From Peptococcaceae bacterium (GTDB taxonomy: Bacteria > Bacillota > Peptococcia > Peptococcales > Peptococcaceae): a stretch of 10,952 bases of DNA. The stretch lies in contig JAFOFM010000023.1 of assembly GCA_017387265.1 (NCBI GenBank), forward strand, positions 1 through 10,952, written 5' to 3'. Shown one piece after another: positions 1,830-5,308 of the stretch. The position numbers were made by a program, and so were the translations under genes. The first letter of the stretch is position 1, and each line of letters opens with the position of its first letter. The notes under the pieces are model-generated. The model was not told where the DNA came from, did no database searches, and worked only from the letters and a program-made list of their open reading frames with translations.

Positions 1830-2084
1830 TCAGCCACCGGCCGATAAAAACCGAAGACGAAATGCGTTCTGATGCTCCGCACAGGCCTCATCGTCACCGG
1901 TAAAGGTTACCAGCGTACGCGGTATTCGCAGCACCGAGGTGTCATTTATCAACGGCGTCAGGGTTATTACACAGCCAGGCAGTACATACCCGCCATCCGA
2001 TTCTGGTATAATACCCAGTTCCACTTCCAGATATTCTATAATACGCTTCCTGTCAATACCGCTGTTAATCTGCCGTACACCCAT
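1830..2084 (-). CDS. Small unrecognised protein (84 aa)
   Basis: An 84-residue protein, predicted soluble: an N-terminal amphipathic stretch (DRKRIIEYLEVELG, residues 11-24), a beta-like middle (YVLPGCVITLTPL, 33-45; VLRIPRTLVTF, 51-61), an acidic turn GDDEACAEH (63-71) and a C terminus FRLRFLSAGG. I do not recognise the family. It is judged real because it has AGGAT upstream at a normal distance from its ATG, a well-spaced predicted promoter (2161-2189), a terminator just downstream, and alternating hydrophobic patterning typical of a folded protein. Two Cys (38 and 68) are too far apart and too few to argue for a metal site. It is divergent from the XRE regulator at 2225, which may control it; that is inference. 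Confidence 0.7.
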   Translation of the reverse strand: MGVRQINSGIDRKRIIEYLEVELGIIPESDGGYVLPGCVITLTPLINDTSVLRIPRTLVTFTGDDEACAEHQNAFRLRFLSAGG

Positions 2085-2139
2085 TTTCTCACATCCTGTT
2101 ATTTCAGCTTTTTTCGGATATAATTTTTACACATACTAA

Positions 2140-2168
2140 TTACCATTGTATCTACTAATAATTATAAC
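2140..2168 (+). promoter_or_regulatory. Predicted promoter of the XRE regulator gene
   Basis: TTACCA at 2140-2145 and TATAAC at 2163-2168 are separated by 17 bp. A start near 2175 would give a leader of about 50 nt. The -10 box overlaps that of the opposite-strand promoter at 2161-2189. The -35 matches TTGACA in only 4 of 6 positions, so this is a moderate prediction. Confidence 0.45.
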
Positions 2169-2189
2169 ACTATCCTCTAAAATTCACAA
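2161..2189 (-). promoter_or_regulatory. Predicted promoter of the 84-aa gene
   Basis: Read on the minus strand, TTGTGA (2184-2189) and a perfect TATAAT (2161-2166) are 17 bp apart. Transcription would start near 2154, giving a leader of about 70 nt. Confidence 0.6.
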
Positions 2190-2224
2190 CAATAACTTGT
2201 ATGATGTCCATAGAGGTGATTCAC

Positions 2225-2581
2225 ATGGCAAATCGTATTCGTGCTTTACGGGAAGAAATCAACATGACACAGATTCGACTCAGCACCGAACTGGAAGTCT
2301 CTCAGGAAACAATCAGCGCTTATGAAACCGGGCGACACAATCCAAGTTTTGCGCTGTTAGCGCGTATGAGTGATCTGTTCCATGTCAGCATGGACTATAT
2401 CATGGAATTGTCCGATGTACGAAAACCGCTGGCAGAAATGGCACTGACCGACGAAGAACGGGCTGCCGTTAATCTGTTCAGCCGTTTAAATGAGACAGAA
2501 CGCGCTCTGGCCATGACTTATATGCAGGGCATGTATGATGCAGCACAGGCACAAAGTAAAAAAGCAGCTCTGAAACTTTGA
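2225..2581 (+). CDS. XRE-family helix-turn-helix transcriptional regulator
   Basis: A 118-residue DNA-binding protein. Residues about 4-60 form a Cro/CI-type HTH_3 domain: the pattern IRALREEINMTQ, then LSTELEVSQETISAYETGRHNP (recognition helix about 26-35) and LLARMSDLFHVSMDYIM is typical of the family. The rest (about 66-118) is a helical C-terminal part rich in Ala and Met, perhaps for dimerisation. The ATG at 2225 is preferred because GAGGTG at 2213-2218 lies 6 nt before it and the HTH domain begins at once; an in-frame ATG at 2201 would only add eight residues without a good SD. It is divergent from the 84-aa gene with overlapping predicted promoters, so autoregulation and control of that neighbour are plausible. 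The last codons and the stop lie inside a terminator stem. The regulated ligand or target is not evident. Confidence 0.88.
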   Translation: MANRIRALREEINMTQIRLSTELEVSQETISAYETGRHNPSFALLARMSDLFHVSMDYIMELSDVRKPLAEMALTDEERAAVNLFSRLNETERALAMTYMQGMYDAAQAQSKKAALKL

Positions 2582-2605
2582 GTTTCAGAACTGCTTTTCT
2601 TTTTG
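2560..2605. terminator. Two-way terminator between converging xre and ABC ATPase genes, overlapping the xre 3' end
   Basis: AAAAGCAG (2560-2567) pairs with CTGCTTTT (2591-2598) and CTGAAACT (2570-2577) pairs with AGTTTCAG (2581-2588), with a 2x2 internal loop and a 3-nt apical loop. T-runs lie on both sides for both strands (CTTTTT at 2599-2604 on plus; six T directly after the stem on minus). The xre stop codon TGA (2579-2581) sits at the loop, so the left arm is coding sequence. The ATPase gene ends at 2608 on the opposite strand. Confidence 0.88.
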
Positions 2606-2607
2606 TC

Positions 2608-3393
2608 TTAACCTTGTGTATAACGAGACAGGAACTGTTTGGTGCGTTCCTCTTTCGGATTATTGATGAGTTCTTTTGCATCGCCCTGTTCTACCACAAC
2701 GCCGCCGTCCATAAAAATAATCTGGTCGGCTACATCACGGGCAAATGCCATCTCGTGGGTAACAATAACCATAGTGGTTTTATTTTCCGCCAGGCTGCGG
2801 ATAACTTTTAATACTTCGCCGGTTAATTCCGGGTCCAGAGCCGAAGTCGGCTCGTCGAAACACAGAATATCCGGTTTTAATGCCAGCGCACGGGCAATAG
2901 CCACACGCTGCTGCTGACCGCCGGATAACTGATGCGGATAATGATCCATACGATCGGCAAGCCCCATCTGTGCCAGTAATGCTTTACCGTGTTCTTCAAT
3001 TTCCGCATAAATCTGTTTTTTATGCTGTTTGAAATCCGGACGCTCTTTTGCTAATAACTGTTCTGCCAGCATAACATTTTCCAGTGCAGTGTACTGAGGA
3101 AACAGATTAAAAGACTGGAATACCATGCCAAAATGCAGGCGTTTTTTACGTAAATCCTTTTCATTTTCGCTGGCAGGCAGCGATGCGTCAAAAATAACAT
3201 TATCGTGTACCGAAATAGTACCGCTGTTTGGTGTTTCTAAAAAGTTCAGACATCTCAGCAGTGTGGTTTTCCCGGAACCGGAAGAACCGATGATTGCCAG
3301 AGTATTCCCGGCATCCAGCGAGAAACTGACATCTTTCAGCACTTTTGTATTGCCGAAATGTTTTTCAATATGATTAACTTCCAGAATTGCCAT
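2608..3393 (-). CDS. Polar amino-acid ABC transporter ATP-binding protein (GlnQ/HisP type)
   Basis: A 261-residue cytoplasmic ATPase that powers the importer encoded with it. All ABC motifs are present: Walker A GSSGSGKT at 36-43, Q-loop Gln93, signature LSGGQQQR at 156-163, Walker B ILCFDE at 176-181, D-loop SALD at 184-187 and switch His213 in VTHE. Length is slightly above the usual 240-245, owing to extra residues around 68-84 and 112-135, before the signature helix. The ATG is preceded by a strong GGGGAG site. It is the last gene of a three-gene operon and starts 20 nt after the permease stop. Polar-amino-acid specificity follows from family resemblance and partners; the exact substrate is not deducible from the ATPase. 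Confidence 0.95.
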   Translation of the reverse strand: MAILEVNHIEKHFGNTKVLKDVSFSLDAGNTLAIIGSSGSGKTTLLRCLNFLETPNSGTISVHDNVIFDASLPASENEKDLRKKRLHFGMVFQSFNLFPQYTALENVMLAEQLLAKERPDFKQHKKQIYAEIEEHGKALLAQMGLADRMDHYPHQLSGGQQQRVAIARALALKPDILCFDEPTSALDPELTGEVLKVIRSLAENKTTMVIVTHEMAFARDVADQIIFMDGGVVVEQGDAKELINNPKEERTKQFLSRYTQG

Positions 3394-3413
3394 AATGTTT
3401 CTCCCCTCGCTTT

Positions 3414-4079
3414 TTATCTGAAGTAGTTCAGTCTGCGTTCAATATAGCCGAACAGCAGTGTTAAAATCCCTACAAACAGCAGATAGAATACCGCTGTATA
3501 GAATAACGGCCAGATAATCCCCGCCGCTTTGATGTAGGCATAACCGGCATGGGTCAGTTCTACAACGCCGATTACACGGGCAAGAGAAGTATCTTTTACC
3601 AGTGTAATGATCTCGTTAGACATTGGAGGCACGACACGTTTAATCATCTGTAACAGTGTAATTTTGAAGAAAATCTGACTTTTTGTCATGCCCAGCACTT
3701 CGCCGGCTTCTCTCTGACCAGCTGGCACCCCTTCAATACCGCCACGGAAAATAACCGAGAAATAGCAGGCATAGTTCAGGCTGAATGCCACAATGGTAGC
3801 CAGCATACGGCCTTCTGTGCCGCTGCCCCAGATATTATTATGGAGCAGAATCCCCGGAATATAGAACACTACAAACAGCTGCAGCATCAGCGGAGTACCG
3901 CGGAATACCCATACGATTAAATCAACCGCATATTTCAGCGGTTTAATTTTACTCATAGAGCCGAACGCTACCACCAGACCCAGTGGAATCGCAAAAATCA
4001 GTGTACATGCAAAAATTTTAAAAGTATCAGCCAGAGCCAGAAGCAGCGACTGGTTGACCGACCAGAACATCTCAGGCAT
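3414..4079 (-). CDS. Polar amino-acid ABC transporter permease (HisM/GlnP family)
   Basis: A 221-residue inner-membrane permease. Hydrophobic segments lie at about 9-40, 51-78, 93-112, 140-175 and 186-211. The EAA coupling loop is clear: GQREAGEVLGMTKSQIFFKI at about 121-140, which docks on the ATPase. The N-terminal RGTPLMLQLF (60-69) and the later KDTSLARVIG (162-171) are hallmark stretches of this family. Only one permease gene is present, so it likely works as a homodimer. The start ATG has AAGGAG 7 nt upstream. It lies 201 nt downstream of the binding-protein gene, with a hairpin in between, and 20 nt upstream of the ATPase gene. Confidence 0.94.
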   Translation of the reverse strand: MPEMFWSVNQSLLLALADTFKIFACTLIFAIPLGLVVAFGSMSKIKPLKYAVDLIVWVFRGTPLMLQLFVVFYIPGILLHNNIWGSGTEGRMLATIVAFSLNYACYFSVIFRGGIEGVPAGQREAGEVLGMTKSQIFFKITLLQMIKRVVPPMSNEIITLVKDTSLARVIGVVELTHAGYAYIKAAGIIWPLFYTAVFYLLFVGILTLLFGYIERRLNYFR

Positions 4080-4280: not shown

Positions 4281-5096
4281 TTATTCAGCAGCAGGCAGTA
4301 CGATTACCTGTGCGTTGTTGCAGTATGGGTTGGTGCAGTTCATAGCTTCCAGTACGGATTCGTTTAAGGTCATGCCGTTCCAAACAACGTCGATTGCTTT
4401 GGAATCCAGTTCCATGATTTTAGCATCCCATTCGATTACTACGAATTCACATTCTACGCCCAGTTTTTCTGCAACTAAACGAGCCATGTCAGCGTCAAAG
4501 CCGATCCATTCGCCGTTTTCATCTTTGTAATCCATTGGAGCAAATTCAGTGATACCAACTACCAGAGTGCCTTTATCCTGAATGTAAGCTACATCGCTGT
4601 CAGCTTCGGAAGCTGCAAATGCGCTTTCAGGCTGTTCTACTAAGGAAGCCTGTACGCCGTATTTTTCAGCAGTTGCAACCAGAGTGCCATCTTCCTGCGC
4701 TTCATACATTACCTGGTTAATGAAGCTGGTCAGGTCGGAATCTACACGGCAGCCAGCGCCGTATTTTTCTTCAGTCAGCTGATCGCCCAGAACCATATCT
4801 GGATAGCTTGTGCCTTCGCCAATCATAGCGCCAGCCATCAGTAAGTCAATAATAGCAGCATCAGAGGTACCAGCAGCAACTTCCATCAGAGCATCGCCCT
4901 GGGAGTTAACAGCGTTGTATTCCATACCCTGTTCTTTTGCTGCCGCTTCACCAGCGGAACCCAGTTCTACTGCATATACCATTGCGGTTTCTTCACCAGC
5001 TGGTTCCTGATTAGCATCACCAGAACCGCCGCAGCCTGTCAGTGCTAAGCCTGCGATCATTGCAGCTGCTAAAACTTTCATAAATTTCTTTTTCAT
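4281..5096 (-). CDS. Amino-acid ABC transporter substrate-binding lipoprotein with apparently permuted lobe order
   Basis: A 271-residue family-3 solute-binding lipoprotein that captures an amino acid outside the membrane. Residues 1-21 are a lipoprotein signal with lipobox LTGC, Cys22 being lipidated. The body is in unusual order. Residues about 38-154 match the usual second lobe and C terminus (YAVELGSAGE at 41-50; DALMEVAAGTSDAAIID at 68-84; TEEKYGAG at 108-115; EDGTLVATAEKYG at 135-147). Residues about 171-271 match the usual N-terminal lobe (GTLVVGITEFAPMDYKDENG at 176-195; GFDADMARLVAEKLG at 199-213; IDVVWNGMT at 235-243; NPYCNNAQVIV at 256-266). A 16-residue linker (155-170) joins them. 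The start is set at 5096, with GGGGAG just upstream; an in-frame ATG at 5138 would bury the signal peptide. First gene of the operon. The Arg that commonly follows the GMT motif to bind the ligand carboxylate is not evident. Confidence 0.92.
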   Translation of the reverse strand: MKKKFMKVLAAAMIAGLALTGCGGSGDANQEPAGEETAMVYAVELGSAGEAAAKEQGMEYNAVNSQGDALMEVAAGTSDAAIIDLLMAGAMIGEGTSYPDMVLGDQLTEEKYGAGCRVDSDLTSFINQVMYEAQEDGTLVATAEKYGVQASLVEQPESAFAASEADSDVAYIQDKGTLVVGITEFAPMDYKDENGEWIGFDADMARLVAEKLGVECEFVVIEWDAKIMELDSKAIDVVWNGMTLNESVLEAMNCTNPYCNNAQVIVLPAAE

Positions 5097-5136
5097 GTTT
5101 GTCTCCCCCAAATCATTTATCGAGATAATAACTTTC

Positions 5137-5156
5137 ATTCAGAATCATTTCTGAAT
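5137..5156. promoter_or_regulatory. Perfect inverted repeat at the predicted 5' end of the transporter mRNA
   Basis: ATTCAGAA (5137-5144) and TTCTGAAT (5149-5156) form a perfect 8-bp inverted repeat around a 4-nt centre. It begins about 2 nt into the transcript predicted from the promoter at 5165-5193. It could be a repressor operator or a 5' stem-loop that protects the mRNA. Confidence 0.6.
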
Positions 5157-5250: not shown

Positions 5251-5291
5251 TAAAAATTAAAAAGCAGAACAAATTATTTGTTCTGCTTTTT
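5251..5291 (-). terminator. Intrinsic terminator of the lonA-engB unit
   Basis: A perfect 15-bp stem, AAAAAGCAGAACAAA (5259-5273) with its complement at 5277-5291, and a 3-nt loop. On the minus strand it ends in a T-run that continues as AATTTTTA (5251-5258). It starts 17 nt after the engB stop. Confidence 0.9.
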
Positions 5292-5308
5292 ATTGATTCT
5301 ATATTCTT

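Follow-up and report, generated by a model that had tools for sequence, protein, structure and literature searches.

The question raised by the stretch of DNA analysed here (the window: 10,952 nucleotides, contig JAFOFM010000023.1, from a Peptococcaceae bacterium) is whether one of its genes encodes a binding protein whose parts have changed places. The gene lies on the minus strand at 4281..5096 and encodes a family-3 solute-binding lipoprotein of 271 residues, which a sequence-only reading had taken to be a natural circular permutant. In our view the data, drawn from the open reading frame (ORF), Pfam, phmmer and a rotation profile, are most consistent with a working natural circular permutant of the binding lipoprotein of an amino-acid-type ATP-binding cassette (ABC) importer, derived from an ancestor of ordinary order by duplication and trimming. 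We put the probability of this reading at about 0.87.

Three segments serve to describe the order. Segment A comprises the portion of lobe 1 on the N-terminal side of the first hinge, B is lobe 2, and C is the portion of lobe 1 that follows the second hinge and reaches the C-terminus; the hinge positions are those assumed for the family in general. Canonical proteins run A-B-C. In the window protein the canonically second segment B comes first (residues 39–109; 4770..4982, minus strand, as for all features given here) and is followed by segment C (residues 110–155; 4632..4769), which is canonically last and ends in YGVQASLVEQ, much like a canonical C-terminus. A new linker (residues 156–171; 4584..4631) leads into segment A (residues 172–268; 4293..4583), which is canonically first but here comes last, ending at the first hinge strand (AQVIVLP). 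The ORF, its strand, the lipobox LTGC with Cys22 and the motifs quoted in the sequence-only reading are all present. That reading assigned the first half of the protein to lobe 2 alone; lobe 2 is indeed there, but so is the C-terminal part of lobe 1, which places the cut at the first hinge crossing.

Hidden Markov models (HMMs) of the segments and a whole-length rotation profile were built from unpermuted relatives only, and the segment HMMs read the window protein as B-C-A. Positions 2–91 of Pfam SBP_bac_3 (PF00497) align with residues 179–268 at 92.4 bits, against a curated cut-off of 26.4. Comparison with PDB chain 6svf using phmmer gave two alignments, each significant alone: residues 172–267 match chain positions 6–102 (i-Evalue 1.8e-16) and residues 39–146 match positions 119–226 (i-Evalue 5.9e-8). 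In the rotation scan the native protein scores 185 bits over 108 of the 240 profile positions, and the best start, S158 within the linker, scores 314 bits over 237. Permuted proteins from other genomes gain similarly (L059, from 175 to 332 bits; L064, from 182 to 324 bits), and the canonical controls L106 and L091 gain nothing on rotation. No collinear whole-length match to the window protein was found with the Pfam and NCBIfam profiles or with the canonical-only profile, and rotation restores such a match to the unpermuted homologues. As its order is B-C-A and not the collinear order of SBP_bac_3, we file the protein as a permuted SBP_bac_3 variant rather than as a canonical member. The comparisons at the sequence level thus support its identification as a natural circular permutant of a family-3 binding protein, and both the order and the behaviour towards profiles agree with what had been proposed.

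Such an order could also be produced by faulty assembly or annotation of this metagenome-assembled genome (MAG), which is fragmented (251 contigs) and 79.9% complete, and 1.5-copy metagenomic ORFs that may be chimaeric do exist in the family, as described below. In a one-genome-per-species scan, from which the best 80 loci of at least 556 confirmed relatives were kept, a B-C-A ORF is present in all 80 of the loci kept. A permease gene lies downstream in 79 of them and both permease and ATPase genes are found in 74; five of the six exceptions reach the end of the locus, whereas L056 does not. Because these loci come from independent assemblies, the permuted order is not an assembly error, and the local rearrangement that the sequence-only reading had named as a possible objection is excluded. 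The pairwise ratio of nonsynonymous to synonymous substitution (dN/dS) for the window gene is 0.066–0.196 (11 of 12 pairs with finite dS), although four of the 12 loci duplicate the values of another, leaving about seven independent values. The permuted gene is under purifying selection. Given the many assemblies, the shared neighbours and this selection, we consider an artefact of this MAG to be virtually out of the question.

The titles of the loci kept name Peptococcaceae, Ruminiclostridium, Lachnospiraceae, Oscillospiraceae and other Clostridia, mostly as MAGs and many of them gut-derived. Those which carry no MAG label include Roseburia porci and Oscillibacter sp. PC13, and at least one is a named isolate strain. 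Within the 46 genomes surveyed from its own class, the permuted order occurs in six of the eight genomes of the genus (in one of these the gene runs off the contig) and, elsewhere in the family, in a single genome. A phylum-wide sample yielded three of 398 genomes, one being the source genome and two having already been counted elsewhere. This patchiness within its own class, set against the many loci in Lachnospiraceae and Oscillospiraceae, suggests horizontal transfer of the permuted gene among gut bacteria. The permuted protein was found in six of 150 genomes of the Roseburia porci family and in nine of 150 of the Oscillibacter PC13 family. In each of these 15 genomes only one match reaches E ≤ 1e-25, and among the candidates scored, a part of those first considered, no close canonical relative was seen, so that the permuted form seems to stand in for the canonical protein and not alongside it. 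The source genome, at its 79.9% completeness, showed no second permuted gene; the two other SBP_bac_3 genes that a search found in it, L001 and L003, read as canonical.

The descent of the permuted form was followed in a careful maximum-likelihood tree of rotated proteins, comprising 61 chosen rows, with most permuted and canonical rows left out together with the long-branch rows L099, L100, L164_143, L165_1, L048_3448, L123 and both rows of L172. An earlier set, in which 14 loci were dropped as duplicates and 180 rotated rows were thinned to 105 at 78% identity, was used for a quick tree only. In the 61-row tree all 14 window-type proteins form one clade (support 100/98). The canonical L108, L112 and L119 adjoin it in a clade of 17 rows (99/97), and the whole sits inside a clade of 29 rows (100/100) that includes 15 canonical proteins. 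The nearest single canonical row is L112, a placement which is weak (86/42). A quick permease tree, which carried a long-branch warning for other parts, likewise groups 16 of 16 window-type operons (Shimodaira–Hasegawa-like approximate likelihood-ratio support 95), nested among canonical operons. The simplest reading of the two trees would be a single permutation in place, within an operon that already existed. The unpermuted sisters (L106, L108, L112, L119 and others, of the Roseburia porci family) have in common with the window protein the signature motifs and the loss of an arginine discussed below, and the permease gene adjoins them where the stretch reaches far enough. They differ from it in their A-B-C order and in having some 15 additional residues just past the first hinge.

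As a rule, the canonical sisters have YGVQAALIEQ as their C-terminus and start after the lipobox with ESDMAYVKDKGTLVVGIT; the middle of the permuted proteins reads YGVQASLVEQ-PESAFAASEA-DSDVAYIQDKGTLVVGIT, i.e. old C-terminus, spacer and old mature N-terminus. We read the linker of the window protein (EQ-PESAFAASEA-DSDVAYI) as the scar of this fusion. A strict pattern for the join fits 66 of the 80 loci, in the eight inspected of the 14 misses the join is the same apart from minor differences, and there is little variation in the linker across the 21 permuted loci compared. The new C-terminus lies a few residues past the first hinge strand (AQVIVLPAAE), and the next 15 or so residues of the sisters, those just after the first hinge, are absent. 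The scar and the missing residues together match what tandem duplication and trimming would leave behind. Single ORFs with two complete units, A-B-C-A-B-C, occur in three other genomes: L219 (558 residues, 1911–3587), L220 (516 residues) and L221 (515 residues). L219 and L221 have permease and ATPase genes nearby and L220 has a permease gene in the stretch analysed. These genes are of the same family and have the form predicted for the intermediate; they fall on branches of the tree other than the window clade, and from their sequences we regard them as candidate intermediates of permutation.

The proposed route would start from a binding protein of ordinary A-B-C order that already had these neighbours. 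Duplicated in tandem and in frame, its gene would have read A-B-C-A-B-C, and loss of the first A and of the last B-C would have left B-C-A. The fold would be retained, with B forming lobe 2 and with C and A pairing again within one chain, through the linker of about 16 residues, to form lobe 1. The lipid anchor would thereby have shifted from lobe 1 to lobe 2, and the only covalent hinge strand left would be that from B to C, the new termini lying at the other hinge. The same order could have arisen if a split half-gene encoding B-C had been joined to a gene for A alone, or if a single cut-and-paste step had moved the segments, and it is true that the clade of the window protein yielded no tandem gene. 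Against this, the linker holds canonical C-terminal and mature N-terminal residues head to tail, relatives carry tandem genes, and two groups of permutants cut at the second hinge share starred clades with such genes; we consider a fusion or one-step origin improbable. Tandem duplication with trimming, as the sequence-only reading had suggested, appears to be the better account, and the search of related genomes that it called for recovered the same order in many of them as well as the unpermuted sisters and the tandem genes.

Prediction of the window protein with AlphaFold2 from a 108-row alignment gave a mean predicted local distance difference test score (pLDDT) of 89.5 and a predicted template modelling score (pTM) of 0.80; a structure prediction from a 20-row alignment had a pLDDT of 61.8. 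The fold is predicted to be kept, with a new connectivity. Foldseek and VIA-align displayed no permuted match, which aligners that keep the chain order are unable to score. As the interface between segments A and C must form again across a linker of some 16 residues, B-C and A might instead pair between chains, giving domain-swapped dimers or chains in place of a permuted monomer, and domain swapping is known for the arginine-binding protein (ArgBP) of Thermotoga maritima. The confident single-chain model and the low variability of the linker in the 21 permuted loci argue against an exchange of this kind, which we think unlikely.

Comparison with canonical proteins bears on the ligand. T. maritima ArgBP (6svf, 4prs) and LAO/HisJ have the A-B-C order, and both halves of the window protein are significantly similar to ArgBP. 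The window protein differs from ArgBP and LAO in its B-C-A order, in having, as we infer, one hinge strand and an anchor on lobe 2, and in lacking an equivalent of R77. This residue, which we take to be the arginine that holds the α-carboxylate of the amino acid in LAO, is aligned with Val248 in the window protein; the canonical sisters also have no arginine at this place, and an entry for the R77A variant of LAO was among those returned by the structure search. Judged from the binding-site sequence, the ligand of the window protein may be something other than an ordinary amino acid. A further step would be to suppose that transport has been lost and that the protein now acts as a sensor, enzyme, adhesin or in some other role. 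The missing arginine could be read in this way, and some proteins with a family-3 fold are enzymes, cyclohexadienyl dehydratase being among the matches. The unpermuted sisters with the same neighbours lack the arginine too, however, and the permease and ATPase genes have been kept, which makes a loss of transport unlikely. The lipoprotein signal, recognized by eye, and the genetic link to a permease and an ATPase of polar-amino-acid type are those of an importer's binding protein, and the conserved gene order and purifying selection are consistent with the intact operon and working protein that had been claimed for the locus.

The window clade is not the only permuted lineage. A cut at the first hinge is also found in another lineage, with order B2-C-A, in L159 and in 73 further proteins of the 120 among its matches listed, and in L160 as well. 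In L138, L139 and L140 the cut lies within lobe 2 (B2-C-A-B1), and rotation lifts the match from 107–140 to 235–236 of the 240 profile positions. Cuts at the second hinge (C-A-B) occur in L161–L166 and others. In the phmmer comparison of L163 with 3hv1, query residues 127–296 align with 20–192 and, more weakly (i-Evalue 0.0039), query residues 59–118 with 199–259. Segment C is weakly scored in some second-hinge members (9–48 bits), and in L163, L166, L185, L210 and the second gene of L214 the rotation scan left C unjoined to the rest, a caveat for this type. We also observed that in L206, L208, L210, L212, L214 and L217 the ATPase gene of a family-3 operon is followed by a second gene for a binding protein, in which C precedes A as in the second-hinge type. 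The L214 operon starts with a window-type permuted protein and so seems to hold two different permutants.

Approximately unbiased (AU) tests rejected a single clade for the window group with the L159 group (p = 3.8e-5), with L160 (p = 1.1e-4) and with L160 and the lobe-2 cuts together (p = 2.7e-6). A common origin is possible for L160 and the lobe-2 cuts. In a second tree of 38 chosen rows, in which L185, L187 and L202 alone represent the weak second-hinge set, the starred branches demand at least five changes for nine second-hinge rows, and the AU test on this set rejected six second-hinge rows as one group. Taken over both trees, and with every change counted as a gain, there would be about eight events; the groups tested were named after the trees had been seen, and counts of changes do not distinguish gain from loss. 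On balance we favour the interpretation that family-3 proteins of gut Clostridia have been re-cut at three places in independent lineages (about eight if all changes are gains), repeatedly by way of in-frame tandem duplication and in some cases with unpermuted and tandem forms surviving among relatives, and that the move of the anchor and the break in the hinge may be selected for.

Metagenomic proteins of 1.5 copies form a separate group (parts of P0010–P0148 and P0206–P0315). Among 199 proteins there are 45 with lobe order L2-L1-L2 and 16 with L1-L2-L1, and the search with L159 added 36 and nine, respectively. Of those in the first list, 45 of 52 have one member on one contig each. In many of the 70 proteins inspected, out of 108 long ones, one end is nearest to a canonical and the other to a permuted protein at 46–97% identity, although some rows deviate; identities in this range do not single out the parents. 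No 1.5-copy ORF was seen in 300 genomes of the two family samples. Chimaeric assembly or genuine recombination may account for these proteins, which at first sight resemble intermediates, and we do not use them as support.

A naturally permuted binding protein has been described before. Tp0684 (TpMglB-2) of Treponema pallidum is a crystallized glucose-binding lipoprotein that binds its ligand and whose gene is clustered with transporter genes; its authors, who propose the term 'Type Ic', describe related proteins in Gram-positive bacteria, among which gut commensals are numerous (PMC4990184). Both it and the window protein are natural permutants of ABC-importer binding lipoproteins and, on the part of that account available to us, Tp0684 demonstrates that such permutants can work (PMC4990184). 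It has the type I fold of cluster B sugar-binding proteins, in contrast to the family-3 window protein; the type I fold was not found in the latter, for which Pfam at E ≤ 0.01 returned PF00497 only. As far as the Tp0684 account goes, family 3, several cut sites, repeated origins and tandem intermediates are absent from it (PMC4990184). Our literature search, whose scope excluded most subscription journals and bioRxiv, returned engineered sensors and Tp0684 but no natural family-3 permutant. Natural permutation of a binding protein is known from type I; what takes the present case beyond a curiosity is that permutation probably arose repeatedly, at three cut sites, and that canonical and tandem relatives survive.

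Permutants whose unpermuted relatives adjoin the same transporter genes provide a test of how moved termini affect folding, hinge motion, anchoring and docking to the permease, in a class of proteins that also serves as a scaffold for biosensors. The relatives with tandem genes make the model of duplication and trimming directly testable. Automatic annotation hides the permutation, as for the most part PF00497 alone is assigned, and in the window protein this domain covers the last third only.

The remaining features of the locus are as follows. A G-rich run resembling a ribosome-binding site (5103..5109, minus strand), read directly, stands immediately before the ATG at 5096, and this start is favoured for that reason over a further in-frame ATG upstream at 5138. 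The lipoprotein signal peptide, assigned by eye, occupies 5031..5096 and ends in the lipobox, and Cys22, the residue expected to be lipid-modified, is invariant in the 20-row and 108-row alignments. The conserved neighbours are an ABC permease of the HisM/GlnP type (3414..4079, minus strand; BPD_transp_1) and an ABC ATPase of the polar amino acid type (2608..3393, minus strand; profile match). With a single permease gene, the permease is expected to act as a homodimer. Among the NCBIfam equivalogs listed for the two proteins none attains its cut-off, so annotation provides no substrate for them, and a search of 12 sources for a riboswitch as a hint to the ligand gave none at the gathering threshold. 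Between the binding protein gene and a gene for a YsxC-like GTPase we noted by eye a palindromic stem (5260–5292) flanked by runs of A and T, which is perhaps a bidirectional terminator.
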